From Niastella caeni (GTDB lineage Bacteria; Bacteroidota; Bacteroidia; Chitinophagales; Chitinophagaceae): DNA of 64,000 bases. The stretch lies in NCBI RefSeq assembly GCF_004834005.1, contig NZ_STFF01000001.1:619347-683346 (forward strand). The letters are read 5' to 3'. Shown here in pieces: positions 8,592 to 59,285 of the stretch. The notes under the pieces are model-generated. The model was not told the origin of the DNA, ran no database searches, and saw nothing but the letters and a program-made list of their open reading frames with translations. Numbering within the stretch: position 1 is the stretch's first letter; the number at the start of each line of letters is the position of its first letter. Made by a program: the position numbers and the translations under genes.

Positions 8592-8648
8592 AATGTCGAA
8601 TGTCGAAGTATTTTCACTTCAACATTCGATATTCAATATTCGTTATTC
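8592..8648. repeat. Period-7 array with two complementary arms (AATGTCG / NNNATTC)
   Basis: AATGTCG is repeated at 8592 and 8599. After a short core, ATTC recurs at 8624, 8631, 8638 and 8645, exactly 7 bp apart; the two arms are of opposite orientation (GAATGTCGAA against TTCAACATTC). The right arm contains the stop codon of the phospholipase C-like gene (8643-8645). The rest of 8432-8591 holds a small hairpin (CCCGATATTCGGG) and no gene. Confidence 0.75.
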
Positions 8649-9641
8649 ATCTGTTTCCTTGTCCTGCTTAGCCATTAACAATTTCTTCTCTATTAGTTGG
8701 TTCTTTTTAAACGCCTCCATTTCTTCCTGCAGATCTCTTTTCACTTTTTTCTTTTCAGGTGATTGCACTCCCTTGTTCAAATTCGGACAACCGGCATCTA
8801 CCCAACTGGTATACCAGAAGTCTGCCACCAGATTCGCTGAACTAATGAGCTGCTGATTAATGGTGTTGCCCAATCGCTCACTATATGCTTTTGCAAATGA
8901 AGATGTATAATTCTTATACTCCCTGCCATTCCGCATTTGCACCCGGTATTTTTCAGTGTCGCTAAATGACTTAGTGACTGCCTTTTCCTGTGCAAATACG
9001 TCTTTTAATAATTTATTCGACTGCCGGATAGCCCGCCAGATGTCTCTTTCAGGATGCTTCAGGTAACGCGCCTTGTGCCGGCTGCGCAAATCGTATTCCT
9101 TTAATTCAATCTCCGGCACCATCGTTTCCCATAAACTGTGCAAACCTTTCTGTCCGCTCAATTGTCCATCGTAATTTTCAGTAACATGCAATGGCACATG
9201 TGCATCACTAATATAATGGCCCAGGTCGGTTGCATAAAAAAGAATACTGTCTTTATTGCCACTGCGGAAAGCGGCCGTCAGCCGTTCTTTCATGGTAACT
9301 ACATAATAAGGTAAATACCCGCATTGCGCTAAACTGTCCTTCCCATATTTCTTTACAGCTTCCGCCCAGCGCAAAGGCATTTTCCATGCTGCGCTATCGC
9401 CATACAATTCCAGGTCAATATAATGTTTAGGCGCCTCGGTTTTGTCTTTATTCCTTCGCTGGTCGGGCCGTACCGAATTCTTTACCACCTCATTCATATT
9501 ACGATGGAAAAAATACCGCATCGCCGGCGGTAATTCATATATGGCCAGTTGATGAATGGTACGGTGCACCAGGAAACCCCAACTGCTACAAACAATGCCT
9601 GCCACTATTAATACACTACCCGTTACTATCAATCTTTTCAT
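8643..9641 (-). CDS. Secreted zinc-dependent phospholipase C / S1-P1 nuclease-like protein
   Basis: After a signal peptide (MKRLIVTGSVLIVAG...), the mature protein starts with WGFLVHRTIHQLA. An N-terminal Trp and His of this kind bind zinc in phospholipase C and S1/P1 nucleases. Further metal-ligand candidates are ATDLGHYISDAHVPLH and the downstream GLHSLWE. The protein would act in the periplasm or outside the cell on phospholipids or nucleic acid; which one is not clear. I use the ATG at 9641 because upstream codons would place residues before the signal peptide. The C-terminus is a Lys/Glu-rich tail, and its stop lies in a period-7 repeat arm. Confidence 0.82.
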   Translation of the reverse strand: MKRLIVTGSVLIVAGIVCSSWGFLVHRTIHQLAIYELPPAMRYFFHRNMNEVVKNSVRPDQRRNKDKTEAPKHYIDLELYGDSAAWKMPLRWAEAVKKYGKDSLAQCGYLPYYVVTMKERLTAAFRSGNKDSILFYATDLGHYISDAHVPLHVTENYDGQLSGQKGLHSLWETMVPEIELKEYDLRSRHKARYLKHPERDIWRAIRQSNKLLKDVFAQEKAVTKSFSDTEKYRVQMRNGREYKNYTSSFAKAYSERLGNTINQQLISSANLVADFWYTSWVDAGCPNLNKGVQSPEKKKVKRDLQEEMEAFKKNQLIEKKLLMAKQDKETDE

Positions 9642-9903
9642 ACGGATTAATTTGGGCGAAGTTGCATAAATAAAATGCGCGCCTGTAATAAATCTGTTTT
9701 TTTTGCTACTAATTAACTGTTTCGTTACCTTTTGCATGGCCACCGAAGCCTTAGCGAAGGTGACAAAGCACTTGTTTCAGCACACAACTTCAACCTGTTA
9801 GAGCTTGCCTCGAAATACCGGGGGCTATGCAATGTATGTTTGTTGCACTAACAAGCGACCTTACAGGTTTTAGATATGTATATTATCAAAAAGCTTGCAT
9901 GCA

Positions 9904-10839
9904 ATGAACAGACTGGAAGTTAAACATCTAAAAAAATATTATACTTCGCAGAAAGCGGTAGATGATATTAGTTTCTCCCTGGCGCCCGGCAGTATCTTTG
10001 GTTTATTAGGTCCCAATGGAGCCGGCAAAACTACTCTCTTAAGAATGATCACCGGTATTTTGTTCCCCGATGAAGGAGAGATCATATTCGATGGGAAAAA
10101 ATTTGATCCTGATACTGACATCGCCTATATAGGTTATATGCCCGAAGAAAAAGGGTTATATAAAAAAATGCAGATCGGCGACCAGGCCATTTACCTGGCG
10201 CAGTTAAAAGGACTGAGCAAGGCAGCCGCCCTGGAAAGCGTAAAACACTGGTTCGTTAAATTTGAAATGCAAAGCTGGTGGAACAAGAAAGTGGAAGACC
10301 TGAGCAAAGGCATGCAGCAAAAACTTCAGTTCGTTACTACTGTACTGAACGATCCCAAACTCATAATTCTTGACGAACCTTTCAGCGGCCTCGACCCTGT
10401 TAATACCAACCTCATCAAGGATGAAATTTATAAGCTCGCCCAAAATGGCAGCAGCATAATTTTCAGTACCCACCGCATGGAGCAGGTGGAAGAAATTTGC
10501 GACCACATCATCCTCGTCAATAAAGGGCAAAAGATACTCGATGGAACGGTAAACGGCGTTAAACAACAATTCAAGGAAAACATGTTTGCCATCGGTCTTG
10601 AGAGCATACCGGAAAACATCAGCACACCGGCTTTTGAAGTTATTAGTAATAACAGGGACCATCAACTGTTATTGAAGATCCATGAAGGATATAAACCCAA
10701 TGATGTGCTGCATTATTTTCTGCAACAACAGGTTGGCATTAATTCCTTTCATGAAATACTCCCTTCGCTGAGCGAAATATTTATAAAACTGGTAGAAGGC
10801 ACGCCGCTTACCCGGCAATTTCAAACTGTAACTGCTTAA
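9904..10839 (+). CDS. ABC transporter ATP-binding protein (NatA-like)
   Basis: Walker A is GPNGAGKTTLL, the signature LSKGMQQKLQF, and Walker B LIILDEPFSGLDP, followed by the switch His (STHRMEQ). The roughly 80-residue C-terminal extension is typical of exporters of the NatA/DrrA type. The ATG at 9904 gives MNRLEVKHLKKYY; the frame extends back to a TTG at 9895. It precedes its membrane partner by 12 bases, so the two form an exporter operon. The substrate is unknown; sodium export is one family activity but cannot be assumed. Confidence 0.9.
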   Translation: MNRLEVKHLKKYYTSQKAVDDISFSLAPGSIFGLLGPNGAGKTTLLRMITGILFPDEGEIIFDGKKFDPDTDIAYIGYMPEEKGLYKKMQIGDQAIYLAQLKGLSKAAALESVKHWFVKFEMQSWWNKKVEDLSKGMQQKLQFVTTVLNDPKLIILDEPFSGLDPVNTNLIKDEIYKLAQNGSSIIFSTHRMEQVEEICDHIILVNKGQKILDGTVNGVKQQFKENMFAIGLESIPENISTPAFEVISNNRDHQLLLKIHEGYKPNDVLHYFLQQQVGINSFHEILPSLSEIFIKLVEGTPLTRQFQTVTA

Positions 10840-10851
10840 TACGATATTGGA

Positions 10852-12168
10852 ATGAATAAGATATTACTTGTCATACAACGTGAATACCTGGTACGGGTTA
10901 AGAAAAAATCTTTTCTGTTTACGACCATCGGCGTACCCATCATCATCATTGGGTTTTATGCTGTCATGATTGCAGTTGGCGTGAGCGGCGGGCCTGAAAC
11001 AAATAAAATTGCCGTGATCGATGAGGCCAATTTGTTTAATGGTAATATTGATAAGGCAAAAGACGATGGCTCGGAATATGTTTTCATTAGCAATCAATCA
11101 CCCGACTCGCTTAAAGTAAAGTATAAAAAACTGGGCTATGATTATTTTTTATACATCCCGCCCATAGAAGATTTTACCAAAAATGTCAGCAACATTCAAT
11201 TGTTCAGCAAGTCGCCGGTTGCGATGAAGCAAAAAAGAAAAATTGAAAAAACGATCAATAGTATTATAGAACAAAAAAGACTGCAATCGGCCAATATTTC
11301 ACGTGAGCAGTACCGTTCCATCAAATCAGATGTATCTATAGACAATAAAATTGTAGATGGTAAGGAAGAAAAGAAAGGGGTAGCTGCTGTTGCAACCATT
11401 GTATCATTCGTCTGCGGTATTCTTATTTACATGCTCATGTTGATCTATGGAACCATGGTAATGCGAGGGGTTATGGAAGAAAAATTAAACCGCATTGCGG
11501 AAGTAATGGTAAGCTCCGTAAAACCATTTCAATTGATGTTGGGCAAGATCATTGGCATTGGCGCCGTAGGGCTAACCCAATTTGCCATTTGGATTGTTCT
11601 GATCGTTGGCTTGCAGTTCATCCTGTCAATCTTTATTCCTTCATTTGATTTGAGCACGCTCCCCCAGACCGGTCAGGGCGCCGGCGCTATGGCAGAAAAC
11701 GTAAGCAAAATGGACGCTTTCCGCATCGGATTTCATTCAGTTCCCTGGGGCCTGATCATCTTCAGTTTCATCTTTTATTTTATTGGCGGCTATTTGTTGT
11801 ATGCCTCTTTATTTGCAGCCATTGGCAGCGTAGTGAGTGAAGATCAGAATGAAGCGCAGGCAATGGTATTTCCGGTAATGATGCCGATCGTTCTGGGCTT
11901 TGTAATTATGACGAAAGCCATTACCGAGCCCAATACTCCACTCGCAATTTTTGGCAGCATATTTCCGCTTACGTCGCCTGTTGTCATGATGGGACGTCTC
12001 ATGTACAACGTGCCCATAAGCCAGGTGATCATTTCCATGCTGTTGCTGGTGTTAAACTTTATATTCTTTGCCTGGTTATCCGGAAAAATTTACCGCACCG
12101 GCATTTTAATGTATGGGAAGAAAGTTACCTGGAAAGAGATGATCAGGTGGACGGTGAGAAAGAGTTAG
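10852..12168 (+). CDS. ABC-2 type transporter permease (NatB-like)
   Basis: An N-terminal membrane helix (SFLFTTIGVPIIIIGFYAVM) is followed by a large extracytoplasmic domain of about 160 residues. A cluster of five or so membrane spans then begins at about residue 180 (ATIVSFVCGILIYMLMLIYG). This is the ABC2_membrane_3/NatB layout. The motif MEEKLNRIAEVMVSSVKPFQLM is the conserved coupling segment. It forms a pair with the ATPase just upstream. Downstream is an 8-bp-period inverted repeat starting three bases after the stop. Confidence 0.88.
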   Translation: MNKILLVIQREYLVRVKKKSFLFTTIGVPIIIIGFYAVMIAVGVSGGPETNKIAVIDEANLFNGNIDKAKDDGSEYVFISNQSPDSLKVKYKKLGYDYFLYIPPIEDFTKNVSNIQLFSKSPVAMKQKRKIEKTINSIIEQKRLQSANISREQYRSIKSDVSIDNKIVDGKEEKKGVAAVATIVSFVCGILIYMLMLIYGTMVMRGVMEEKLNRIAEVMVSSVKPFQLMLGKIIGIGAVGLTQFAIWIVLIVGLQFILSIFIPSFDLSTLPQTGQGAGAMAENVSKMDAFRIGFHSVPWGLIIFSFIFYFIGGYLLYASLFAAIGSVVSEDQNEAQAMVFPVMMPIVLGFVIMTKAITEPNTPLAIFGSIFPLTSPVVMMGRLMYNVPISQVIISMLLLVLNFIFFAWLSGKIYRTGILMYGKKVTWKEMIRWTVRKS

Positions 12169-12170
12169 TA

Positions 12171-12255
12171 AGTTCCTGAGTTATTTAGTTATTGAGTTCT
12201 TCAGTTACTGGAATTCAAGAACTCAATAACATATGAACTGAATAACTCACGAACT
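12171..12255. repeat. Inverted pair of five-unit octamer arrays (AGTTNNNN x5 / NNNNAACT x5)
   Basis: Left arm: five consecutive 8-mers starting AGTT (12171-12210, no gaps). Right arm: five consecutive 8-mers ending AAC(T/A) (12216-12255). The arms are separated only by GAATT. Pairing the arms unit by unit, the outer two units match 7 of 8 bases and inner ones 5-6 of 8, so the whole is a roughly 40-bp imperfect hairpin with an internal 8-bp beat. It starts three bases after the ABC permease stop and ends nine bases before the next ATG. Confidence 0.9.
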
Positions 12256-12263: not shown

Positions 12264-12821
12264 ATGCTTTACTTCATAGCTATAGTAACACCTGAAACCA
12301 TCAACCAGCAGGTACTGGAATGGAAAAATTATATGCTGCAGCAGTTCAACTGTAAAGTGGCTTTGAAATCACCCGCGCATATAACCCTTATTCCACCTTT
12401 TCAAATGCCCGATAGCGCACAACAGGAAATGAAGGATCACCTGCAGTCGTTTGCTGCCGGCAAAGAAAGCTTTTCTATTCAATTAAAAAATTTTGCCGCG
12501 TTTAAGCCCCGGGTCATTTATGTAAACGTGCTGCCCAATGACCCCTTAAAAGAATTGAGAACCCAATTGGAAACAACCCTGCTGAAAAGCAGGCGCTTCC
12601 CTGTAAAAAAAGAAGATCGACCTTTTCATCCCCACGTTACCATTGCCAACCGCGATCTTACCAAGGAAGATTTTCCGCAAGCCTGGCAACATTTTCAATC
12701 AATAGCTTACGAAGCAACTTTTACCGCCGATGCCATTTCACTGTTGCGGCATAACGGTAAAATTTGGGAAATAGTCGCAAGCTTCCCTATTCTTAGTTCA
12801 TATAGTTCTGAAGTTCATTAG
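12264..12821 (+). CDS. 2'-5' RNA ligase / cyclic phosphodiesterase superfamily protein (LigT-like)
   Basis: The two family motifs H-x-T-hydrophobic are present: HITL at residues 39-42 and HVTI at 124-127, which together form the active site of the 2H phosphoesterases. Length (185 aa) fits. Such proteins open or join 2',5'- or cyclic phosphodiester bonds in RNA or nucleotides; the natural substrate here is unknown. The last eight residues (SSYSSEVH) are encoded by the first units of an AGTT octamer array, so the native C-terminus probably ended near VASFPIL and was extended by the repeat. Confidence 0.85.
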   Translation: MLYFIAIVTPETINQQVLEWKNYMLQQFNCKVALKSPAHITLIPPFQMPDSAQQEMKDHLQSFAAGKESFSIQLKNFAAFKPRVIYVNVLPNDPLKELRTQLETTLLKSRRFPVKKEDRPFHPHVTIANRDLTKEDFPQAWQHFQSIAYEATFTADAISLLRHNGKIWEIVASFPILSSYSSEVH

Positions 12822-12890
12822 TTATTGAGTTCCTTAATTATCCAGTCTGAACACACCTAATGAACTTACTAACTTAAGAACTCACAAACT
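12795..12890. repeat. Inverted octamer arrays overlapping the LigT-like stop
   Basis: AGTT or a near variant recurs at 12795, 12804, 12812, 12820, 12828, 12836 and 12844 (one 9-bp step, otherwise 8). AACT recurs at 12863, 12871, 12879 and 12887. The arms have opposite orientation. The left arm includes the end of the LigT-like reading frame (stop 12819-12821). Confidence 0.85.
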
Positions 12891-13940: not shown

Positions 13941-14050
13941 AGTACCAGTTGCCAGCTACCAGGTACCGGGGCGCAATCCAATAGCAGTCTGATTATTGGC
14001 GGGCATTCTGCGCTAAGGTCCCGGCAACCGGAAACTGGCAACCGGTAACC
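13941..14050. repeat. Inverted heptamer arrays (GTTNCCN / GGNAACC) with palindromic core
   Basis: Four clear heptamers of the type GTTGCCA lie at 13941-13968 and four of the type GGCAACC at 14023-14050, each with a more worn fifth unit on the core side. The core contains nested palindromes (GCGCA...TGCGC around CCAATA...TATTGG). It lies between two convergent genes, just ahead of a normal terminator. Confidence 0.85.
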
Positions 14051-15907: not shown

Positions 15908-16024
15908 AGGCATAAAGGCACAGAGGCATCGAGGCAACGAGGAATACAGGATAACATGCCCTATTTACTGCTGGTTGCCTTGCAGCCCCCTTGTTGCCTT
16001 TTTGCCTTGTTGCCTCGTTGCCTT
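15908..16024. repeat. Inverted octamer arrays (AGGCANNN / NNTTGCCT) in the glyA control region
   Basis: AGGC(A) recurs at 15908, 15916, 15924, 15932 and (AGGA) 15940. GCCT recurs at 15996, 16004, 16012 and 16020 in the opposite orientation. Steps are exactly 8 bp in each arm. The right arm contains the glyA -33 TTG and stops five bases before the -7 box. Confidence 0.85.
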
Positions 16025-17367: not shown

Positions 17368-17455
17368 GTTACAGGTTACCAGTTACCGGGGAATACAATT
17401 TTCGCCGGCTTACTGCAGTAAGGCCCCGGCAACCGGCTACTGGTAACCGGTAACA
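17368..17455. repeat. Inverted heptamer arrays (GTTACNN / GGNNAC(C/A))
   Basis: Heptamers start at 17368, 17375 and 17382 (GTTACAG, GTTACCA, GTTACCG). Opposite-strand units start at 17428, 17435, 17442 and 17449 (GGCAACC to GGTAACA). The core holds the palindrome CTTACTGCAGTAAG. Same word family as 13941-14050 and 17952-18007. Confidence 0.8.
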
Positions 17456-17952: not shown

Positions 17953-18007
17953 TTGCCGGTTACCAGGCACCGGTTGCCAGTTACAGGTTACATGTTTCAG
18001 GTTTCAG
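17952..18007 (+). repeat. Eight-unit heptamer array (GTTNCNN)
   Basis: Eight uninterrupted heptamers from 17952, all variants of GTTACCA (for example GTTGCCG, GTTACAG, GTTTCAG), beginning at the last base of the DUF4293 stop. No complementary arm is present here. Confidence 0.85.
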
Positions 18008-18054
18008 GGATCTTACTTCAAACCTCATGACTGCCTTTTTGCCTTTTCACGACT

Positions 18055-18097
18055 AACGAACTTAATAACTTAATAACTCAATAACTGAATAACTACT
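18055..18097 (+). repeat. Octamer array (NNNNAACT)
   Basis: AAC recurs at 18059, 18067, 18075, 18083 and 18091, exactly 8 bp apart (TAACTNAA units). It ends two bases before the stop of the minus-strand secreted protein and is of the same word family as 12171-12255. Confidence 0.85.
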
Positions 18098-20120: not shown

Positions 20121-20156
20121 AAAAAATCCCTCCGGTTGAACCGGGGGGATTTTTTA
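20121..20156 (+). terminator. Terminator of the T9SS gene
   Basis: AAAAAATCCC-T-CCGG and CCGG-G-GGGATTTTTT pair around a small loop, with a long T run: a strong rho-independent terminator about 105 bases after the stop, usable in both directions. Confidence 0.88.
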
Positions 20157-20166
20157 TTTTTTAGGT

Positions 20167-20241
20167 CGTTAGTTATTGAGTTTTTTAGTTTAAAATTCAC
20201 AGGTTAACTTACTATCTCATGAACTCAATAACTAATTAACT
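20167..20241. repeat. Inverted octamer arrays (AGTTNNNN / NNNNAACT)
   Basis: AGTT at 20171, 20179 and 20187, and AACT at 20206, 20222, 20230 and 20238, with 8-bp steps (one missing unit). Same word as at 12171 and 12795. Lies between the T9SS terminator and uvrA. Confidence 0.8.
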
Positions 20242-20251
20242 CACTTTTCCG

Positions 20252-20283
20252 TTTCAATATTCGACATTCACTATTCAATATTT
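20252..20283. repeat. Heptamer array (NNNATTC) abutting the uvrA stop
   Basis: ATTC/ATTT at 20259, 20266, 20273 and 20280, exactly 7 bp apart, running into the uvrA stop codon (20282-20284). Same word as the right arm at 8617-8648. Confidence 0.8.
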
Positions 20284-28024: not shown

Positions 28025-28080
28025 GCATGTTTCCCGATACCCCCCAGCCTCCTACTATTGGCAAAGAGTTTTTAAAATCA

Positions 28081-28167
28081 GCTATAAGCCGTAAGCGATA
28101 AGCTGTTAGCAAATACAATTTCCGTTTTGCCTTTCGCTTACAGCTTATGGCTTGCAGTTTACAGCCT
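28081..28167. repeat. Inverted five-unit heptamer arrays (GCNNTAA / NNAGCTT)
   Basis: Left arm: five heptamers from 28081 (GCTATAA, GCCGTAA, GCGATAA and two more). Right arm: GCTT, GCTT, GCTT, GTTT, GCCT at 28136, 28143, 28150, 28157 and 28164, opposite orientation. The core is about 17 bases. It lies between purQ and the DUF6427-like gene. Confidence 0.88.
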
Positions 28168-28219
28168 TCAATGTTCAGGCTTGTATATCTTGTTAATTAT
28201 CAACAAATTAGAATTAAAC

Positions 28220-31037: not shown

Positions 31038-33023
31038 GTGGGCAAACAAATTAATAAAGTTACCGCTGCCTCCTTACTTATTGCGTTAGGAATTATTTAT
31101 GGCGATATAGGAACATCCCCATTGTATGTACTAAATGCAATTACCAGCGGCCGGACGATCGATGAAAGTTTAATTCTGGGCTCTCTGTCCTGCATAATCT
31201 GGACACTCACCCTGCAAACAACCCTGAAATATGTGGTGCTTACTTTAAAAGCCGATAACCGCGGTGAGGGGGGAATTTTTTCGTTATATGCACTGGTTCG
31301 CCGGCAAAAAAGATGGCTGGTAATACCCGCCATGCTGGGGGGTGCGGCCCTGTTGGCCGATGGAATGATCACCCCGCCCATTTCGGTAACCTCCTCCATC
31401 GAGGGTTTGCGAAATATTCAGGGACTGGGCCGTATTGAAGATTCTACCATTGTATACATTGTTCTCGCCATTATAAGCGTACTTTTTTTTCTGCAGCAGT
31501 TCGGCACCGCATCCATAGGTAAAATGTTTGGCCCCATCATGATGTGCTGGTTCTGCATGCTGGCCATATTGGGGGCTACGCACCTGTTAGATGACATGCA
31601 CATTTTTAAGGCGTTCAACCCGTACCACGCCATAGACCTGTTAACACACTACCCCAAAGGTTTCTGGCTACTGGGCGCCGTATTCCTTTGTACAACGGGG
31701 GCCGAAGCCCTGTACTCCGACCTGGGCCATTGCGGCCGGGAGAATATCCGGTACTCGTGGATCTTTGTTAAATCGTGCCTGATCCTGAACTACCTGGGCC
31801 AGGGCGCTTTCCTGCTCGCCAATTATTCTGGCAAACAGATCACCGCCGATATGATCAGCGCCGGGTTCAACCCGTTTTACAAGATCATGCCAGACTGGTT
31901 TGTGATCCCGGGCATTTTGATTGCCACCGCAGCGGCCATTATTGCAAGCCAGGCCCTCATCAGCGGGTCGTTTACGCTTATCAGTGAAGCCATGCGCCTG
32001 AACCTGTGGCCCAAATTGAAGATCAATTACCCCACCGAAGAACGGGGCCAGTTATATATTCCCGGCATCAACATGTTGTTATTCGTGGGTTGCGTAGGTA
32101 TTGTGTTGTATTTTAAAAAATCATCACAGATGGAAGCAGCTTACGGGTTGGCGATTACCATTTGTATGATTGCCACCACCATGCTGTTTGCCAACTTCCT
32201 GGTAAGCCGCCGGGCCAAACCATTATGGATCTACCTGTTCCTGATCGTTTATTTGACCATAGAACTATCGTTCCTGTTTGCCAACCTCGAAAAATTCCCG
32301 CACGGCGGTTATGTTACCCTGTTGGTAGGCGGTGGGTTGTTCTTTGTGATGTACATCTGGTACCGCAGCCGCAAGATCAAGAACCGGTATGTGGAGTTTG
32401 TACGGCTCGAACATTATATACCGCAAATACAGGAATTAAGCAACGACAAAACCGTACCCAAGTACGCTACCCACCTGGTATACCTTACCAGCGCCAATAA
32501 CCCCAAGGAAATTGAGCATAAGATCATTTATTCTATCCTCAATAAAAAGCCCAAGCGGGCCGATATTTACTGGTTTGTGCATGTTGACACGCTCGACGAC
32601 CCGTATACCTGCGAGTACACGGTGGAGCACATTATTCCCAACGACATCATCCGGGTTGAGTTCAGGTTAGGTTTCAGGATGGAGCCGAAGATCAACCTTA
32701 TGTTCCGCAAAGTGGTGGCCGACCTGGTAGCCAATAAAGAAGTGAATATTACCAGCCGGTACGAAAGCCTTGAACGGAATAATGTGGTGGGCGACTTCCA
32801 GTTTATTGTAATGGAAAAATACCTGAGCCAGGATATTGAGCTCCCCTTCTTCGAAAAAATGATCATGCGACTGTATTTTATGGTAAAAGAATACAGTTTG
32901 TCGGAAGAACGCGGGTTTGGCCTGGATGTGAGCAACGTGACCATCGAAAAATTCCCACTCATTGTTGCTCCGGTACCTAATCTTAATTTGAAAAGGGTTT
33001 TTGATAGCGAAGAAAGTTTGTAG
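31038..33023 (+). CDS. kup: KUP/HAK/KT family potassium uptake protein
   Basis: The protein begins with the family segment ALGIIYGDIGTSPLYV and has about twelve membrane spans (GGAALLADGMITPPISV, GAEALYSDLGHCGRENI, LILNYLGQGAFLL) followed by a cytoplasmic C-terminal domain of about 200 residues. It should bring in K+ with protons across the inner membrane. I start it at GTG 31038 (GKQINKVTAAS): there is no ATG before the conserved region and the promoter overlaps the longer frame. Its stop is followed, seven bases later, by an inverted heptamer array. Confidence 0.93.
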   Translation: MGKQINKVTAASLLIALGIIYGDIGTSPLYVLNAITSGRTIDESLILGSLSCIIWTLTLQTTLKYVVLTLKADNRGEGGIFSLYALVRRQKRWLVIPAMLGGAALLADGMITPPISVTSSIEGLRNIQGLGRIEDSTIVYIVLAIISVLFFLQQFGTASIGKMFGPIMMCWFCMLAILGATHLLDDMHIFKAFNPYHAIDLLTHYPKGFWLLGAVFLCTTGAEALYSDLGHCGRENIRYSWIFVKSCLILNYLGQGAFLLANYSGKQITADMISAGFNPFYKIMPDWFVIPGILIATAAAIIASQALISGSFTLISEAMRLNLWPKLKINYPTEERGQLYIPGINMLLFVGCVGIVLYFKKSSQMEAAYGLAITICMIATTMLFANFLVSRRAKPLWIYLFLIVYLTIELSFLFANLEKFPHGGYVTLLVGGGLFFVMYIWYRSRKIKNRYVEFVRLEHYIPQIQELSNDKTVPKYATHLVYLTSANNPKEIEHKIIYSILNKKPKRADIYWFVHVDTLDDPYTCEYTVEHIIPNDIIRVEFRLGFRMEPKINLMFRKVVADLVANKEVNITSRYESLERNNVVGDFQFIVMEKYLSQDIELPFFEKMIMRLYFMVKEYSLSEERGFGLDVSNVTIEKFPLIVAPVPNLNLKRVFDSEESL

Positions 33024-33029
33024 CTGTCT

Positions 33030-34865: not shown

Positions 34866-34912
34866 AAAATTAAAAAGTCAAAGGCCCTTCATAATCGCAA
34901 ACCTGTATTCAC

Positions 34913-36092: not shown

Positions 36093-36094
36093 CG

Positions 36095-36122
36095 TGAATG
36101 GTGAATGGCCAATGTTCAATGG
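36095..36122 (+). repeat. Four-unit heptamer array (NNAATGN)
   Basis: AATG at 36097, 36104, 36111 and 36118, exactly 7 bp apart, starting just after the orphan terminator. Confidence 0.7.
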
Positions 36123-36162
36123 TAAAGGTCCAACTTCAGCAGGGAAACTATGAAACTAAAAA

Positions 36163-36178
36163 CCCCGAACCATCGGGG
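36163..36178 (-). terminator. Terminator of the first TIGR04222 gene
   Basis: CCCCGA and TCGGGG pair around ACCA; on the minus strand the stem is followed by TTTTTAG. About 110 bases after the stop. Confidence 0.7.
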
Positions 36179-37711: not shown

Positions 37712-37903
37712 AATTCTGTCTTTGGTTACACAAAGTTATAACGGAGTTATGCAAACGTGCAAGCAACTATGTATTACCAAATTGTTAAGGAGCGTGGAAC
37801 GTGTGAAACGTGAACACGGCTGCAAGCAGCAAGCCGAAGGCTGAAATACAAGTAAGCTTCATTTTAATCTGTTTTCGCTCTGGGCTTTTGCCTTCTGTAG
37901 TCC

Positions 37904-37934
37904 ATTATCACATTAGCAAATTAGCACATTAATC
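37904..37934. repeat. Octamer array (ATTANCNN) overlapping a stop codon
   Basis: ATTA at 37904, 37912, 37920 and 37928, exactly 8 bp apart; the last unit holds the stop codon of the second TIGR04222 gene. Confidence 0.75.
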
Positions 37935-39404: not shown

Positions 39405-39445
39405 TTGAATAGGATGGTTATTGTTGTGAATGGGGAATGGGGAAA

Positions 39446-39530
39446 GCTTCAAGCTGCACGCTGCAAGCTAAAAGCAAAAACAGCTTTGATCTCCGGATAA
39501 CTTGTCAACCTATCAACTTGTCAACTTACT
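39446..39530 (+). repeat. Five-unit heptamer array (GCTNNAA) followed by four-unit octamer array (AACTTGTC)
   Basis: Heptamers start at 39446, 39453, 39460, 39467 and 39474 (GCTTCAA, GCTGCAC, GCTGCAA and two more). Octamers start at 39499, 39507, 39515 and 39523. The two words are unrelated but lie side by side. The heptamer word recurs at 49136-49170. Confidence 0.85.
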
Positions 39531-41795: not shown

Positions 41796-41840
41796 CTCCC
41801 CTGAATTATCAATTCTTAAGAAATATGCCCCCAACCACCT

Positions 41841-41931
41841 GAAAACTGGAACCCGGTAACCTGCATATCGCGAGGTTCAACCCAAAACTGGAAACCGGAA
41901 CCCGGAGCCCGGGAACTGGCGCCCGGTAACC
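41841..41931 (+). repeat. Heptamer arrays (GGNAACC), three plus seven units
   Basis: Three units at 41841-41861 and seven at 41883-41931 (for example GGAAACC, GGAACCC, GGCGCCC, GGTAACC), all in one orientation, upstream of metG. The word is the complement of GGTTACC seen at 17952 and 52728. Confidence 0.85.
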
Positions 41932-44255: not shown

Positions 44256-45128
44256 ATGAAACTCGGCTTCATTGGATTAGGCAATTTAGGTACGCCCATC
44301 GCAGAGAACATTTTAACAAGCGGGCATGAAGTATTTGTATACAATCGCACCGCTTCCAAAACAAAACCATTAACCGACAAAGGCGCAACGGCCTGTGCAA
44401 CGGTAAAGGAATTAACAGCAGCCTGTACTGTTATTATCACCATGGTGTCGGACGATAAAGCTTTAAAAAGTATCTGCGAGGGTGAAGATGGCCTTATAAA
44501 AAATATGCAGCCGGGCAGCGTTCATATTTCCATGAGCACCATACTGCCGCTTACCGCCGAAGAACTTTCCAACCAGCATACACAAAACGGTTCTCACTAC
44601 CTGGCGGCGCCGGTATTTGGCCGGCCTGAAGCGGCCCGTGCCCGTAAGCTGAACTTTGTGATGTCGGGCGGCGGAGCACATCGCCCCCAATTTGAACAGT
44701 TATTGAAAGATGCAGGCGGCGCCGGCGTATGGGATTTTGGCGATGTCGTTACTGCTGCCAACACCATCAAACTCTGCGGCAATTTTATGATAGCATCTGC
44801 CCTGGAAGCCATTGGTGAAAGCGTGGCACTGGCCGAAAAAAGTAACATCGATAAACAGAAAATGTGGTCGTTCTTTACGCAAACTATTTTCAACTCGCCT
44901 ATTTATATCAACTACGGAAACATCATTGTTAACCGCCTGTTTGAACCGGCCGGATTCAGCATGCAGTTGGGATTAAAAGACGTGAACCTTGTATTATCAC
45001 AGGCAGCACACGTACAGCATAAAATGCCGTTGGCCAATTTGCTGCAAAACCATATGCAACAGCTCATAGAAAAAAAGGGCCCGGAGGTGGATTGGAGTAC
45101 GGTTTCGCAGGCAGCTGAAATCAATTGA
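44256..45128 (+). CDS. NAD(P)-dependent beta-hydroxyacid dehydrogenase (3-hydroxyisobutyrate/tartronate semialdehyde reductase-like)
   Basis: The N-terminal Rossmann fold starts FIGLGNLGTPIAENI (GxGxxG) with VYNRT at the second strand end. The family substrate loop is present as HYLAAPVFGRPEAAR, and the catalytic Lys lies in NTIKLCGNFM. This is the beta-hydroxyacid dehydrogenase family. It faces the glycerate kinase gene, so a tartronate-semialdehyde reductase feeding glycerate is a reasonable guess, though 3-hydroxyisobutyrate or succinic semialdehyde are alternatives. The stop codon lies inside the first unit of a heptamer array. Confidence 0.85.
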   Translation: MKLGFIGLGNLGTPIAENILTSGHEVFVYNRTASKTKPLTDKGATACATVKELTAACTVIITMVSDDKALKSICEGEDGLIKNMQPGSVHISMSTILPLTAEELSNQHTQNGSHYLAAPVFGRPEAARARKLNFVMSGGGAHRPQFEQLLKDAGGAGVWDFGDVVTAANTIKLCGNFMIASALEAIGESVALAEKSNIDKQKMWSFFTQTIFNSPIYINYGNIIVNRLFEPAGFSMQLGLKDVNLVLSQAAHVQHKMPLANLLQNHMQQLIEKKGPEVDWSTVSQAAEIN

Positions 45129-45195
45129 CAATTGGCAATGGACAATAGGCAAAGAATAATTTCGAATTTGCCAATTGCTTATTGCCCATTAAATG
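45122..45195. repeat. Inverted five-unit heptamer arrays (CAATNNN / TTGNNNN), 4-base core
   Basis: CAA at 45122, 45129, 45136, 45143 and 45150; then TAAT; then units at 45161, 45168, 45175, 45182 and 45189 (TTC/TTG/TTA). Five plus five units with exact 7-bp steps. The first unit (CAATTGA) includes the stop codon TGA of the dehydrogenase. Confidence 0.93.
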
Positions 45196-49116: not shown

Positions 49117-49135
49117 ATTAAATTACGTTGTGAAA

Positions 49136-49170
49136 GCTTCAAGACAAAAGCTCCAAGCTGCAAGCAATAC
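49136..49170 (+). repeat. Five-unit heptamer array (GCTNCAA)
   Basis: Units start at 49136, 49143, 49150, 49157 and 49164 (GCTTCAA, GACAAAA, GCTCCAA, GCTGCAA and one worn). Same word and length as the array at 39446-39480. Confidence 0.88.
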
Positions 49171-49211
49171 AGAGGGTTTGCAATATAGAGCCAGACCAAA
49201 CCGCGGTCAGC

Positions 49212-49244
49212 AACCACAAACAACAAACCATAAACTACAAACCG
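49212..49244 (+). repeat. Five-unit heptamer array (AACNNNA) just before the metzincin ATG
   Basis: AAC at 49212, 49219, 49226, 49233 and 49240, exact 7-bp steps, ending four bases before ATG 49248. Same word as the right arms at 33105 and 34013 but without the counter-arm; the GCTNCAA array stands in its place. Confidence 0.88.
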
Positions 49245-49247
49245 GCA

Positions 49248-49907
49248 ATGGGTGAAGTCGAATTACATACTATTACCAATCAACTCATCATTCATTCTGT
49301 ATTCTTCTTTTACGGAGATGCAGCCACTAATGATCTGTCCTGGCAAATAGCCGACGACATCAGCCAGCACTGGAATGAACCTAAAGCAAAGATCAAAATT
49401 GGCAGCGCCCTGTTCAATGTGCAGTTCGACATTGATGGTATATATGAACCCGACCTCGACCCCGAAAAAGTATGGTACAATGATAACCCCCGGTTCAATT
49501 TTTTTCGCATTGAAGAATTCGCCAACGGCAATATTTCTTTCGTAGATGGCATTGGCTGCAATACCGGTTATTTTAAACTGGATAATCTTTTACAAACTTC
49601 CACTACGGCCGCCCATGAATACGGTCATACCCTGGGGCTTGTTCATCCAATGAACCTCGATATAAGGGGCAAAGACACCCCTGGCATAATGTATCCGCGC
49701 GGCACCATTGTAGATCCACCGTTTCAATACGACCCCAATGCAGAAGCCGGTAAAGCCGGCGGTACCTTAAATCCCGTTCATCGAAAGGTGCTTATAAATG
49801 ATATTGAAGAATTAAAGCTTCATAAGTTGTTGTTTACGAATGGAAGAGCGGTAGTAGGTGATTTTTCCAGCCTATATCATTCGAAGCATACCCCGCCAGT
49901 GAGTTAA
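49248..49907 (+). CDS. Metzincin-type zinc metalloprotease
   Basis: The extended zinc motif HEYGHTLGLVH (H123, E124, H127, H133) followed by a Met-turn-like IMYP at 147-150 defines a metzincin, closest in pattern to matrixin (M10) domains. Length is only 219 aa, essentially a catalytic domain. Oddly, there is no signal peptide: the N-terminus (MGEVELHTITNQLIIHS) goes straight into the domain, and the upstream bases are a repeat array, so the leader may have been lost or the enzyme may be cytoplasmic. The last 20 residues are basic and unrelated to M10. Confidence 0.8.
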   Translation: MGEVELHTITNQLIIHSVFFFYGDAATNDLSWQIADDISQHWNEPKAKIKIGSALFNVQFDIDGIYEPDLDPEKVWYNDNPRFNFFRIEEFANGNISFVDGIGCNTGYFKLDNLLQTSTTAAHEYGHTLGLVHPMNLDIRGKDTPGIMYPRGTIVDPPFQYDPNAEAGKAGGTLNPVHRKVLINDIEELKLHKLLFTNGRAVVGDFSSLYHSKHTPPVS

Positions 49908-49910
49908 ACG

Positions 49911-50006
49911 GTTTATTGTTTCTGGTTTATTGTTTTTGGTTTTCCAGGGCGGGCAGCCCGCCAATATTCGGTCCTTCCGAATGAAAAAACAAGAAACCAT
50001 AAACTT
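49911..50006. repeat. Inverted heptamer arrays (GTTTNTN / NNAAACN) with two-hairpin core
   Basis: GTT at 49911, 49918, 49925, 49932 and 49939; AAC at 49988, 49995 and 50002. The core has two small hairpins, GGCGGGC-A-GCCCGCC and ATTCGG...CCGAAT, related to the core at 33967-34008. Starts four bases after the metzincin stop. Confidence 0.9.
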
Positions 50007-52715: not shown

Positions 52716-52727
52716 GGATTATTGTCG

Positions 52728-52845
52728 GTTACCAGTTACCAGTTTCAGATTACCGGATGGCAGTTACAGGTTACAAGTTACCGGTTACAAGTTTCAGGGA
52801 TTTTGCCTTTTTCATTTCTCTGTTCCTCATTCCTCATCTTAACTT
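52728..52845 (+). repeat. Ten-unit heptamer array (GTTACNN) plus a five-unit CTCATTN array
   Basis: Ten uninterrupted heptamers from 52728 to 52797 (GTTACCA, GTTTCAG, GTTACAA and similar), then, after a short gap, five pyrimidine-rich heptamers at 52811-52845 (CCTCATT-like). Ten is twice the usual five. Confidence 0.88.
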
Positions 52846-52850
52846 TCTTT

Positions 52851-54876: not shown

Positions 54877-55117
54877 AGCTTACTGTTTAACAGCCCCACC
54901 AGCCTACCCTCACTCGCTGTTGAGACCAGATTAAGAATAACGGGTTAGTTTAACAATTTTGCATGCCAACGGTTCGTGTTGTGTAGGCAAACTTTCCGTT
55001 GTCATGCCGGTACTTTTCATATTCCCCGGATTTTCTTTTCAATAGGTTGAATGTACGTGGTCTGTTATTAAAGTCTGTTACTTGTATTTTACTTGTGCCT
55101 TGAGTCCTTGGCTTTTC

Positions 55118-55278
55118 TTGTGCCTTGGACCTTGTGCCTTGTGCCTTGGACCTTGGACCTTGTGCCTTGTGCCTTGGGCCTTGGACCTTGTGCCTTGGAC
55201 CTTGTGCCTTGGGCCTTGGACCTTGTGCCTTGGACCTTGTGCCTTGGGCCTTGGACCTTGGGCCTTGGACCTTGTGCC
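55118..55278 (-). repeat. 23-unit perfect heptamer array TTGKRCC between ftsA and ftsZ
   Basis: Read on the plus strand, 23 consecutive heptamers without a single indel, of only three kinds: TTGTGCC (A, 10x), TTGGACC (B, 9x), TTGGGCC (C, 4x). Order: ABAABBAACBABACBABACBCBA. The five-unit block BABAC occurs twice in a row (units 10-19), a 35-bp higher-order repeat. Worn units continue from about 55093 to 55117. The array ends one base before the ftsA stop codon complement (55280-55282), so it is transcribed directly after ftsA. 54877-55092 shows no other feature. Confidence 0.97.
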
Positions 55279-55279
55279 T

Positions 55280-56656
55280 TTACAAAGCGTGGTCTTCTTC
55301 TTCCTTGAACAATTCAATGATACCATCTTTGAACTTGCCCCAGAAGTCTTTTATTCCTTTCCGGTTCCTTACTTTTTGCGCCTGTGATTCTTCATCATCC
55401 ATCACTTCTTCTTCAACCAGCTCTGCCTTGCGCAGGTTTTCAGGTATTTCCAATTTTCTGAACTGGTTCTCGAATTGTTTGCGATGATTTTCATAATCGC
55501 TGTAGCCTTTCAAAATAAGACCAATACAAGTTGAATAGGTTGGGCGGGCTAATTCTTCAATATGTCCTGCTGCCAGGTGTTCGGTCGGAAAGCCGATGCG
55601 GGCATTCAGGCCGGTTACATATTCTGTTAACTGGATGAGGTGTTTTAATTGTGAACCACCGCCGGTCAATACCACGCCACCGTTCAGCATGCGGTTATCT
55701 AAACCAACCTGCTTTAAGTGATAGGTAACGAAATCCATGATCTCGCTCATACGGGCCTGTATGATGTTGGCCAGGTTCTTTACACTGATCTCTTTGGCAG
55801 GCATTCCACGCAAACCAGGAATGGTAATGAACGCATTGCTGCGGGCTTCGTTGGCCAGCGCGCTACCAAACTGCACTTTCATTTGCTCGGCTTGTGTTTT
55901 CAAAACTCCCAAACCGGTTTTAATATCGTTGGTAATGTTCTCACCACCAAACGGTATAACCGCCGTGTGTTTTAAAATACCTTCATAGAAAACAGCCAGG
56001 TCGGTAGTACCACCACCAATATCAACGATGGCTACACCTGCTTCCAGGTCTTCAGTTCCCATAACGGCTGAAGCAGAGGCCAGCGGTTGCAACACCAGGT
56101 CCTTTGTTTTCAATCCACTTTTCTCTACAGCGCGGGTAATGTTGCGAATGGCATTTCTATCACCGGTGATGATGTGGAAATTAGCACCAATTTTCACGCC
56201 ACCATAGCCAATTGGGTTAGGAATATTTTGAAAATTATCAACTGTAAACTCCTGGGGTATCACATCGATGATCTGATCACCGGCAGGAATGTACGTTTTG
56301 TACTGATCTGCTATCAACTGATCGATCTCCCGTTGCGAGATCTCATCATCGGTTTGATGACGCACAATGTCACCGCGGGTTTGCAGGCTTTTTATATGAT
56401 GACCTGCAATACCTACGTATACTTCAGAGATCTCCAATCCGGGATTTGATGCGTAACAATTTTCAAGTGCCATGGTAATGGCCTTGATCGTTTCATCGAT
56501 ATTAAGCACTTGCCCGTGCTTAACACCGTTGGAGTTTGCCCGGCCAAAGCCAAGGATCTCCAACTTGCCGAATTCGTTCTTTCGGCCGGCAATCGCGGCA
56601 ATCTTTGTCGTACCGATATCCAGTCCGACAATAATGGGTTGTTGTTCGTGTTGCAT
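55280..56656 (-). CDS. ftsA: Cell division protein FtsA
   Basis: This actin-like ATPase tethers FtsZ to the membrane and recruits the late divisome. The ATP-binding phosphate-1 motif is GLDIGTTKIAAIAG, phosphate-2 VDIGGGTTDLAVF, and adenosine GGVVLTGGGSQLKHL; a 1C (SHS2) domain lies between. The C-terminal amphipathic membrane helix is KDFWGKFKDGIIELF. ATG 56656 (MQHEQQPIIVGLDIG) is preferred over an in-frame Met at 56704. The stop codon is immediately followed by the heptamer array. Confidence 0.97.
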   Translation of the reverse strand: MQHEQQPIIVGLDIGTTKIAAIAGRKNEFGKLEILGFGRANSNGVKHGQVLNIDETIKAITMALENCYASNPGLEISEVYVGIAGHHIKSLQTRGDIVRHQTDDEISQREIDQLIADQYKTYIPAGDQIIDVIPQEFTVDNFQNIPNPIGYGGVKIGANFHIITGDRNAIRNITRAVEKSGLKTKDLVLQPLASASAVMGTEDLEAGVAIVDIGGGTTDLAVFYEGILKHTAVIPFGGENITNDIKTGLGVLKTQAEQMKVQFGSALANEARSNAFITIPGLRGMPAKEISVKNLANIIQARMSEIMDFVTYHLKQVGLDNRMLNGGVVLTGGGSQLKHLIQLTEYVTGLNARIGFPTEHLAAGHIEELARPTYSTCIGLILKGYSDYENHRKQFENQFRKLEIPENLRKAELVEEEVMDDEESQAQKVRNRKGIKDFWGKFKDGIIELFKEEEDHAL

Positions 56657-56765
56657 ACTTATCCTGTTTTTAGTTGTTGTAAATGGGGTATCGTGAAACG
56701 GCAATCGGCAAAGGCTGTCCTAATTTTTCATCTGAATTACTATTCGAACATCGATTTTTCAATCT

Positions 56766-56800
56766 CTGATTTCCTACTTCCTGCCTCTGACTTCTTACTT
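56766..56800. repeat. Five-unit heptamer array (CTNNCTT) between ftsQ and ftsA
   Basis: Units start at 56766, 56773, 56780, 56787 and 56794 (CTGATTT, CCTACTT, CCTGCCT, CTGACTT, CTTACTT). Same pyrimidine-rich word as 59251-59285. Confidence 0.85.
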
Positions 56801-56846
56801 CGTTTACCTATTTCACCCTTTTATCAATTATTCTTATTTACTTTCT

Positions 56847-57725: not shown

Positions 57726-59111
57726 TTATTTCGATTCAATGATCGCTTTGATCGGCTGCACCAGCGTATCAATATCACCGGCGCCGGCTGTGATCAATAA
57801 CCAACCATTCCCAGTTTTAGTTGCCTTGCTCCGCACCTCTTTTATATATGCCAACAATTCCTCTTTATTCAACACCTGCCTGTTCTTATTCTGCATCTTG
57901 TTTAGTATCGTATTGCTTGTTACTCCTTCTATTGGTAACTCTCTCGCCGGATAAATGGGCAACAGCACTACTTCATCGGCCATATCCAATACTTCTGCAA
58001 ATTCAGTGGCCAGGTCCCTCGTGCGGGTGAACAGATGCGGTTGAAACACCACCGTACACTTCATGTTGCCAAACAATCCTTTTGCACCGGTTATTAAAGC
58101 CCGCAATTCTTCCGGGTGATGCGCGTAATCGTCAACAAATGTTACTTCGGGTGTTTTGATCACATATTCAAATCGCCGTCTTACTCCCCTGAATGCTTCT
58201 ACTGCCGCTTTAATTTTTTCATCAGCAATTCCCAGGCGATGTGCAATGGCAATTGCTGCTATTACGTTTTCTATGTTATGTAAGCCTCCCATATTCAACA
58301 CCACATTCAACAACCGCCAATCTTTCACCTGCACATCAAATTCATAAGTACCATGATGCATTTGAATATTACAGGCATATATATCGGCTTCGGTATTTTT
58401 CAAATGATAAGTGAAATGGTTCGGCGCTTTCAATTCCTTTCCTCTCGGCAAACCATGCTTGCTTATCAATAAACCACCGGGCTTTATTTTTCCGGCAAAT
58501 TCAATGAACGCTTCTTCCATGGTAGCGGGTGTTCCGTAAATGTCCAGGTGATCGGGGTCCATGGCGCTGATCACCGCTACATCCGGCGTCAACCGTAAAA
58601 AACTGCGATCGTATTCATCAGCTTCCACTACACAGGTATCGCGTTCATGGCTCCAGTAATTGCTGTTATAGTTTACGGCAATTCCGCCCAGGAAAGCATT
58701 ACAACCATATTCACTATGCCGCAGGATATGCGCCACCATGGTAGTAATGGTTGTTTTACCATGGGTTCCTGCTACACAGATATTAAAAGAACTTCTGGTT
58801 ATGGCGCCCAGCACTTCACTTCGTTTCAACAACGGATAGTTGTTTTGCTGGTAGTACAACAACTCGGTATGTTCCTTCGGCACTGCCGGCGTATACACTA
58901 TTAATTGTGCATCTTTTGGCGCCAGATCCAGGTTATCTTCATAGTGTACCGGAATGCCTTCACTGGTCAGTTGCTTTGTAAGCAGGGTTTCGGTTTTGTC
59001 GTACCCACTTACTTCTTTTCCGTGAAACTTGAAATAGCGGGCCAGCGCACTCATTCCTATCCCACCAATGCCTATGAAATAAACTTTCTTTATGTCTTTT
59101 ATGTCAACCAT
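57726..59111 (-). CDS. murC: UDP-N-acetylmuramate--L-alanine ligase MurC
   Basis: It adds the first amino acid to UDP-MurNAc in the cytoplasm. The N-terminal Rossmann-like domain begins VYFIGIGGIGMSALARY, the ATP site is AGTHGKTTITTMVAH, and the C-terminal domain has DDYAHHPEELRALI and FQPHLFTRT, all Mur ligase landmarks. ATG 59111 (MVDIKDIKKVYFIG) is the right start; the frame continues upstream through a repeat array that is not coding. Length about 460 aa is standard. Confidence 0.97.
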   Translation of the reverse strand: MVDIKDIKKVYFIGIGGIGMSALARYFKFHGKEVSGYDKTETLLTKQLTSEGIPVHYEDNLDLAPKDAQLIVYTPAVPKEHTELLYYQQNNYPLLKRSEVLGAITRSSFNICVAGTHGKTTITTMVAHILRHSEYGCNAFLGGIAVNYNSNYWSHERDTCVVEADEYDRSFLRLTPDVAVISAMDPDHLDIYGTPATMEEAFIEFAGKIKPGGLLISKHGLPRGKELKAPNHFTYHLKNTEADIYACNIQMHHGTYEFDVQVKDWRLLNVVLNMGGLHNIENVIAAIAIAHRLGIADEKIKAAVEAFRGVRRRFEYVIKTPEVTFVDDYAHHPEELRALITGAKGLFGNMKCTVVFQPHLFTRTRDLATEFAEVLDMADEVVLLPIYPARELPIEGVTSNTILNKMQNKNRQVLNKEELLAYIKEVRSKATKTGNGWLLITAGAGDIDTLVQPIKAIIESK

Positions 59112-59150
59112 GTTTTGTGAATCGTTAATCGTGAATAGGTAGTCTGCAGT

Positions 59151-59246
59151 GATTTCTGATTTCGAGATTTTTCGATTTTGTGATTTGAAATACAAATACC
59201 GACTAAAATGAAATCCCGAAATCGCTAATTCAAAAATCTCCAAATC
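59151..59246. repeat. Inverted five-unit arrays, mostly octamers (GATTTNNN / NNNAAATC)
   Basis: GATT at 59151, 59158, 59166, 59174 and 59182 (steps 7, 8, 8, 8); AATC or a near form at 59212, 59220, 59228, 59235 and 59243 (steps 8, 8, 7, 8). Core of about 24 bases. It splits murG from murC. Confidence 0.88.
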
Positions 59247-59250
59247 ACCA

Positions 59251-59285
59251 CTTCTTACCTCTTACTTCCTACCTCCTACTTCAGC
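59251..59285. repeat. Five-unit heptamer array (CYTNYTA) abutting the murG stop
   Basis: Units start at 59251, 59258, 59265, 59272 and 59279 (CTTCTTA, CCTCTTA, CTTCCTA, CCTCCTA, then worn). One base separates it from the murG stop codon at 59287-59289. Confidence 0.88.

Follow-up and report, generated by a model that had tools for sequence, protein, structure and literature searches.

Short tandem arrays of degenerate heptamers and octamers recur between the genes of the 64,000-nucleotide stretch of Niastella caeni DNA analysed here (the window) and throughout the genome sample around it, and about one third of the gaps examined hold them. The array words form around 15 recurring families with units that are degenerate at fixed columns, and the general plan of an element is a left (L) arm, a core and a reverse-complement right (R) arm. 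With somewhat better than even confidence, the arrays are the arms of tiny non-autonomous mobile elements, resembling repetitive extragenic palindromic (REP) doublets that form hairpins (REPINs) and miniature inverted-repeat transposable elements (MITEs), which are moved in trans by a putative recombinase or transposase. This reading builds on the roughly 15 word families, the fixed inward polarity, the family-typical cores, the dispersed copies and the gaps that are kept while their words change. An earlier note on the window had proposed a single architecture over many words, present genome-wide and with inverted pairs, and this proposal is supported.

Periods, unit numbers and polarity of the arrays

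The sample comprised 1.264 Mb of the 8.10-Mb, 17-contig genome, namely the window and three further stretches, with 718 gaps of at least 30 bp between genes called by an own hexamer-based caller, not a standard program. Arrays were detected by a column-model finder at a threshold of at least 13 bits, with dinucleotide shuffles of the same 718 gaps as control. The finder returned 223 arrays of period 7 against 4 in the shuffles, 86 of period 8 against 6, and 34 of period 11 against 2; the corresponding counts were 4 and 3 for period 5, 4 and 2 for period 6, 15 and 3 for period 9, 4 and 3 for period 10, and 11 and 13 for period 12. The period-11 class is absent from the periods given in the earlier note. 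The arrays of this third class repeat every 11 bp (CCTCTTTGCCT-type), are inverted and enclose cores of 0-9 bp, for example at G000 C1:160214, C11:378964 and C11:392288. When array profiles are clustered, some ten families of heptamers and six of octamers reach a useful size, alongside small clusters with an 11-bp period. Fifteen oriented family profiles detect 470 arrays in 264 of the 718 gaps and 15 arrays after dinucleotide shuffling; the 1.26 Mb scanned is also the sequence from which the profiles were derived. This family scan leaves out the 11-bp clusters and five heptamer families of small size, and for four families that form no pairs themselves the polarity was assigned manually from sister-species pairs.

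Autocorrelation at lags 7 and 8, which had been put forward as a check, shows a sharp intergenic excess in 271 gaps with 79,909 bp (the window and C1:1-400,000). The highest single-base excess over shuffles is found at lag 7 (z ~26) and lag 8 (z ~12), and lags 3, 4 and 6 are raised to a lesser degree (z 11, 6.5 and 7.5). Matches of 4-mers are 3.3 times as frequent as in shuffles at lag 7 and 2.3 times at lag 8, compared to 1.0-1.3 times at lags 4-6 and 9-12. The peaks recur at multiples of lags 7 and 8, and the same analysis gives no lag 7 or 8 peak in coding DNA. With the array finder, five is the modal unit count of both the heptamer (63 of 223) and the octamer arrays (32 of 86), in agreement with the five-unit rule of the earlier note. 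A strict five is nevertheless too strong, since counts of four and six are also common and the usual range is 4-7; in the family scan, four-unit and five-unit arrays tie at 123 each of the 470. Within the window, 24 of the 48 junctions hold at least one array, and the total is 49 arrays, one of which lies within a gene. All 12 places named previously re-scan as 7- or 8-bp arrays. Six of these had been described as five-plus-five pairs: five give two arms, and at 45122-45195 only the left arm scores above the threshold. The pair at 28081-28167 has two arms on the re-scan and is fused into a single run by the family scan.

The orientation of the arrays is highly ordered. Successive arrays with the same word within a gap are inverted in 60 cases and direct in 8, compared to 155 inverted and 171 direct for random related pairs, and 47 of 48 same-cluster pairs have one left-arm orientation per cluster. 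In the family scan, neighbours with the same word are arranged LR 110 times, RL and RR twice each, and LL never. For neighbours with different words the numbers are 48 LR, 6 RL, 16 LL and 22 RR, which shows that chimeric neighbours are mostly inward-facing too. Thus 110 of the 158 LR neighbours share their word, where about 8% would be expected with independent arms. Several families also have a typical core length, which is 48-53 bp in 10 of 17 TTACCGG elements, 19-22 bp in 7 of 11 GATTT elements, and 37, 48-50 or 82-83 bp in 8 of 10 GTTT elements. Despite these typical lengths, the core sequences are mostly unlike each other.

The two arms of a pair vary independently. No covariation was detected between their degenerate positions in 51 pairs, a set without the 11-bp pairs and the pairs with more than 11 units (mean excess -0.0006, p=0.79), which favours subsites read by a protein over selection on base pairs. 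The unit numbers of facing arms are likewise uncorrelated (r=0.05, 106 pairs). Arms of doublets score higher per unit than other arms (7.3 versus 6.7; family-centred p=0.03), similar to REPINs, whose doublets are reported to be better conserved than singlets.

Dispersed copies, turnover between species and proposed mobility

Four elements (AGTT, GTTT, TTACC and GATTT) were tested genome-wide, and each recurs in dispersed units of ~95-112 bp that are 68-88% identical. The earlier view that the arrays imply one process rather than copying of one sequence is in part not borne out, given these copies and the grouping of the words into around 15 recurring families. The GTTT element at C11:371753-371864 has 14 further near-full-length copies with 73-88% identity among the 40 candidates scored out of 183. 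These copies start at query positions 2-10, end at 116-120 of 120 and include the window element at 33932-34043. Their alignment consists of four GTTTRTN units, GTTGCTGCCGCGCTTTGAG, a variable middle, AAAGAAC and four NNNAAAC units; their flanks are unrelated to each other, and in one copy an arm is lengthened by additional heptamers. The TTACCGG unit at window positions 13943-14050 has 8 further near-full-length copies (69-79%) with a shared left edge, and none of the 40 other rows of the TTACC search starts left of query position 94. In the AGTT search all 49 other rows fall within query positions 160-264 of 601, and in the GATTT search all rows but one start at 68-79, the adjoining GAAGT module being matched separately. 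Judged as MITE-like units, which are short and dispersed with inverted ends and sharp boundaries, the GTTT and TTACCGG units fit, and the GATTT unit is sharp at its left edge only. Furthermore, neighbouring array gaps have a common family in 43 of 175 cases, versus 25.1 ± 4.4 after permutation (P=0.0005), which suggests local spread of the families. A case of insertion is seen at gap 10840, which measures 10-12 bp in eight species, whereas a single species has 119 bp there and an AACGC-type array.

For the comparison between species, the window was aligned with eight genomes of the same genus (82-87% mean protein identity; nine species in all). When both species have arrays in an orthologous gap, family and polarity agree in 133 of 344 comparisons (39%), compared to 13% for unrelated gaps; 61% of the comparisons are without a common word, and the position is often kept. 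At gap 34866, the two stop codons overlap by 8 bp in one species, and the words found between the same stops in the other eight are GAAGT (four species), ATGAAAA (two), and AATATTG or TTACCGG. Gap 17953 measures 0 bp in one species and 23-191 bp in the others, and the gap between murG and murC holds arrays of six families in seven of the nine species.

The arrays are not confined to one genus. The host belongs to the Chitinophagaceae, and the nearest named relative of its MurG is that of Paraflavitalea sp. CAU 1676 (76% identity). In 200 kb of Paraflavitalea no array excess was found (2 heptamer arrays in 121 gaps, 2 in shuffles). A genome of another genus (G018) is array-rich to at least the level of the host genus, with 62 heptamer and 17 octamer arrays in 113 gaps, 19 inverted pairs versus 1 direct, and a heptamer mode of five units. 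A survey of 60 MurG loci of other genera gave 54 arrays of period 7, 16 of period 8, 15 of period 6, 12 of period 9 and 11 of period 5, with just 4 inverted versus 3 direct pairs, from which it follows that the rich form is not family-wide.

In the proposed mechanism, a trans-acting recombinase or transposase would spread L-core-R units, the doublet being the moving unit. Each arm would present about five iterated subsites to its cognate enzyme, with the conserved columns as contacted bases and the degenerate columns free to vary. New elements may insert in or beside old ones, as the LLR and LRR gaps and the chimeric L/R words would indicate, and the word at a gap would be replaced in this way. 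Insertions would survive chiefly at the 3' boundaries of genes, with stop codons possibly provided by an arm, and would be lost from promoters and coding cores.

Several observations weigh against mobility. Exact, flush target-site duplications of 3-10 bp are lacking at 12 full-length GTTT copies, and there is no autonomous copy among the 40 scored GTTT hits. Pairs of same-word arrays at distances of 350-4,500 bp are inverted as often as direct (23 each) and enclose no autonomous candidate in the 1.26 Mb, a search that does not extend to every family genome-wide. The nearest other GTTT copy is just 88% identical, so that no recent movement is seen. Core length is scattered in other families, ranging over 0-116 bp for AAGC and 14-98 bp for AATGTG. 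The family scan of G018 gives 14 LR but also 4 RL arrangements of the same word, and one stretch of a same-genus genome (G004 C1:5,000,001-5,100,000) is not enriched (2 arrays in 54 gaps compared to 1 in shuffles), which means that array density is very uneven. For the exact start of arrays at stop codons, described below, selection is the only explanation, or else a target preference, which the analysis could not tell apart from it. Finally, many families with one period and one unit count are unexpected for independent transposon families. A word-agnostic writing or moving system is a related and rather doubtful possibility. Here, one machinery or a fast-diverging enzyme family with interchangeable specificity would place facing arms of about five subsites with a 7- or 8-bp beat at gene ends, and sister species would rewrite the same gaps.

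As to the enzyme that the mobile-element reading calls for, an IS200-like Y1 transposase gene (L199:1474-1902; G000:C10 near 200734) is present as a single copy at one locus in all ten genus genomes, and an ATgGTgA array adjoins it in nine of them. Its neighbours are presumably DAHP-synthase-like and aroB-like genes, and its product has what we take to be an HMH motif and a tyrosine at the expected place. Kept at one locus in this way, and with an orthologue in Paraflavitalea, the gene looks domesticated. Its role as sole driver was rejected, which adds to the points against mobility: Paraflavitalea has an orthologue (62%) without an array excess, and the array-rich G018 lacks an intact copy, containing only a broken one plus a weak match to another, RAYT-like (REP-associated tyrosine transposase) Y1 type. 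This distribution indicates that the IS200-like enzyme is neither sufficient nor needed. A pair of RAYT-like genes (L200:505-1032 and 1387-1989; G000:C13 near 11180) matches the NCBIfam model REP_Tyr_transpos with 75.5 and 59.6 bits, below its cut-off of 80. Weak RAYT-like matches near the E-value limit occur as frames of 203-204 amino acids in seven of the ten genus genomes and of 206 amino acids in G018; at this limit, none is listed for the array-rich G007, nor for the array-poor G011 and G015. The pair at L200 is a possible, putative mobiliser of the arrays.

Arrays with some likeness to these are known from cyanobacteria as short tandemly repeated repetitive (STRR) heptamers, 7-bp tandem repeats between genes. 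The earlier note knew of no named element of this kind; related heptamer arrays are, however, described in two papers (Rehm 2015, PMC4692102; MacGregor 2015, PMC4679880). The closest described case is that of Rehm et al. (2015), whose passages on the repeats report degenerate GGGANTN or GGGGA(C/T)T arrays in Xanthomonas and Nostoc. Four units are their most frequent size, two Xanthomonas genomes contain 70 and 75 convergent pairs, and facing pairs always have one array on each strand. The repeats favour the coding strand directly past stop codons, are rare between divergent genes, and mostly retain their position while length and sequence vary among species. The arrays described here share the 7-bp beat, the fixed and degenerate columns, a preferred small unit number, the facing pairs, the proximity to stops, the lower frequency in divergent gaps and the kept position with variable sequence. 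In contrast, the Xanthomonas and Nostoc repeats, as characterised in those passages, have one G-rich word type per genome, a mode of four and are discussed as quadruplexes, whereas the present genome has around 15 words, 8- and 11-bp beats, a mode of five, typical cores, dispersed units and word replacement. MacGregor (2015), in the portions on their distribution, reports TAACTGA heptamers from Beggiatoaceae, cyanobacteria and Bacteroidetes. They are also intergenic heptamers, and their forward word contains stop codons, which restricts how far they overlap the ends of coding sequences. They differ in being direct repeats of one perfect word, and in the main genome studied most of them precede start codons.

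By analogy, REPINs would be the nearest mechanism (Bertels and Rainey 2011, PMC3116915). As outlined there, they are extragenic inverted doublets with a spacer conserved in length rather than sequence. Here too the doublet recurs as the replicating unit, with a spacer length that is typical in some families only. Unlike in REPINs, as that account defines them, the arms are iterated 7- or 8-mers instead of REPs, and the cognate RAYT is putative; most family words are without a GTAG or CGTC REP tag, as judged by inspection of the words and no dedicated test. With bacterial MITEs the elements share a size of ~100 bp, their non-autonomous and dispersed nature and inverted ends; they differ in that no target duplication (12 GTTT copies) and no parent transposon (some families scanned) were found, and in that the arms match at conserved columns only. 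The many words per genome, the octamers and the word replacement at orthologous gaps go beyond the accounts given in the open-licence PMC texts of both heptamer papers, as do the core spacing and the dispersed units with respect to that of Rehm (2015). Scattered reports of bacterial heptamers are thus joined under one word-independent architecture that points to mobile doublets. Occupied and often reworded gaps affect gene ends, stop codons and 3' untranslated regions, and the nine species, the two genera with arrays and Paraflavitalea without them provide a comparative system for finding the enzyme.

Gene ends and rival explanations

Arrays concentrate at the ends of genes. They occur in 50 of 105 convergent, 181 of 496 tandem and 33 of 117 divergent gaps, and in the nine-species comparison they fill 44 of 61 gap cells where genes converge, 72 of 218 where genes run in tandem and 9 of 61 where genes diverge, 7 of the last 9 belonging to one gap. 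In the 181 tandem gaps, the stop and the first array after it are separated by a median of 7 bp, the last array and the next start by a median of 54 bp. When the scan was extended into the genes, 90 of the arrays at 247 stop-side ends overlapped the gene by more than 3 bp and 74 lay within 3 bp of its end, compared to 18 and 16 at 139 start-side ends, and the stop codon itself is inside the array at 98 of the 247 stop-side ends. In the gene at 12264-12821 (185 amino acids), the array encodes the last residues, and the matches to nine relatives stop at residue 176-178.

A first rival explanation, which is unlikely on balance, ascribes the arrays to a function at gene 3' ends, where a bidirectional hairpin would end transcription or protect mRNA ends, the arms would give stops and the word would drift; it is possibly compatible with mobile elements and not exclusive of them. 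The preference for convergent over divergent gaps, the start close to stops and the position kept over species while words change all agree with such a function. Classic intrinsic terminators are rarer in convergent gaps with arrays (19 of 100 ends versus 42 of 110, p=0.0024), but not in tandem gaps (35 of 181 versus 53 of 315, not significant). Similarly, tandem gaps fold better with arrays than without (median z -1.5 versus -0.4) and eight elements of the window reach good folding scores (z -3.3 to -6.8), whereas convergent gaps fold equally well without arrays (median z -3.1 versus -2.9 with them). Stops in all three frames are present in 157 of 508 inward-reading arms and 60 of 508 outward-reading ones, versus 92 and 28 in dinucleotide shuffles (arrays of more than 14 units left out), and in the TTACCGG family the bias is opposite, with such stops in 0 of 62 inward arms and in 11 of 62 outward ones. 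The idea that the period arises from arrays with stops in every frame is rejected, as this bias amounts to no more than a tilt and is reversed in TTACCGG. In addition, some species are empty at such gaps (0 bp, -8 bp), and the chimeric L/R words, which make up 48 of the 158 LR neighbours, together with the lack of covariation between arms argue against pairing as the selected trait.

Local slippage, in which a polymerase prone to slips of 7-8 nucleotides turns unconstrained gene-end DNA into arrays without movement, is improbable. It draws on a survey that found heptamers to be the commonest long repeats in most of its genomes and on the proposed 7-nucleotide polymerase contact (Mrazek 2007, as summarised in PMC4679880), and long near-perfect expansions do occur (55117-55280; arrays of at least 14 units). 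Slippage, however, yields no words common to the whole genome, fixed inward polarity, core length or dispersed copies that include the core; the degeneracy of the units at fixed columns and the absence of an array excess in Paraflavitalea also speak against it. Equally little probability is given to templated end writing, in which a repeat-adding polymerase with a telomerase-like logic would extend broken intergenic ends that are then rejoined, writing L on one side and R on the other. This predicts the inward polarity, independent degenerate positions, uncorrelated arm lengths, chimeric words, the absence of target duplications and first units that merge with the stop codon, but leaves the dispersed units with a common core and the typical core lengths unexplained. 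G-quadruplexes, as proposed for the Xanthomonas and Nostoc heptamers, which in the relevant passages are alike in period, degeneracy, facing pairs and stop proximity (PMC4692102), have a negligible chance of being the general cause and are excluded as such, since just 5 of the 470 arrays contain at least four runs of three G or three C while the architecture is common to all, and the mode in the array finder is five units and not four.

Along the genome, array density is uneven (chi2 132, df 63) and rises with the native coding score (rho 0.57) and with GC content (0.47) in 61 bins of 20 kb (G000). It may serve as a dating mark for acquired DNA.

Elements of the window and minor observations

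Complete elements with the same word on both arms are found at a number of window junctions. Two of the AGTT octamer family are close neighbours. The first (12164..12254) consists of L 12164-12211, which holds the stop codon of 10852-12168, and R 12215-12254; in the second (12796..12889), L 12796-12844 supplies the gene at 12264-12821 described above with its C-terminal tail and stop, and R follows at 12858-12889. A third AGTT pair, L 20156-20195 and R 20201-20240, is accompanied by an AATaTtG R arm (20255-20282) at the stop of 20282-23095 (whole region 20156..20282). The dispersed TTACCGG heptamer element at 13942..14050 has L 13942-13969, a core of ~51 bp and R 14021-14048 in a unit of ~108 bp, and a second TTACCGG element (17369..17453) has L 17369-17389 and R 17426-17453. 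An AGGCA octamer element (15909..16022; L 15909-15948, R 15991-16022) lies in a divergent gap. The AAGC/GCTT heptamer element at 28078..28183 has its left arm at 28078-28112 and its right arm at ~28121-28178. GTTT heptamer elements are located at 33012..33139, with L 33012-33067 including the stop of 30960-33023 and R 33105-33139, and at 33928..34047, where 33932-34043 is one of the dispersed 112-bp units. ATGAAAA arms occupy the convergent gap at 34862..34955 (L 34862-34882, R 34914-34955).

Chimeric pairs are TTACCGG L 17953-18008 with AGTT R 18054-18093 in a convergent gap (17953..18093), ATGGTGA L 36091-36138 with GTTT-family R 36146-36174 (36091..36174), AAGC L 37816-37843 with octamer AATGTG R 37901-37932 (37816..37932), AAGC L 49133-49167 with GTTT-family R 49212-49246 (49133..49246), and ATGGTGA L 56676-56710 with GAAGT-family R 56748-56823 (56676..56823). 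More composite arrangements are seen at 8402..8647, where an AACGC/AAGC-type L arm (8402-8429) over the last codons of a gene is followed by an AATaTtG element (L 8573-8605, R 8620-8647), and at 39423..39530, where the L arms ATGGTGA (39423-39443) and AAGC (39443-39477) face an R arm of the AACTTGTC octamer (39499-39530). The murG-murC gap (59114..59298) is nested, with ATGGTGA L 59114-59148, a GATTT octamer element (L 59149-59187, R 59210-59248) and a GAAGT-family R arm (59250-59298) that overlaps the murG stop.

The remaining arrays are single or long runs: a TTACCGG-family R array of 13 units (41839..41929), a CAAT heptamer array with an 8-unit run (45120..45176), of which the left arm alone scored and whose first units contain the stop of 44256-45128, a GTTT L arm immediately 3' of the stop of 49248-49907 (49907..49941), and a TTACCGG L array of 11 units joined by an ATGAAAA-type R run at 52802-52850 (52722..52850). 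The CTTGGGC/CTTGGAC heptamer expansion at 55117..55280 counts ~23 units with a 35-bp super-period of five heptamers and is near-perfect, in contrast to the usual degenerate arms.

Rfam finds nothing in the window beyond two tRNAs. An operator-like palindrome (TACGAAAG..ATCGTA-type) is present at 12890-13010, upstream of the gene at 13013, and also occurs in several sister species. A TCACATGAGAAAA motif with a hairpin and a T-run lies 3' of the gene at 46677-49058 (window 49060-49120), is found in sister species too, and is probably a terminator.

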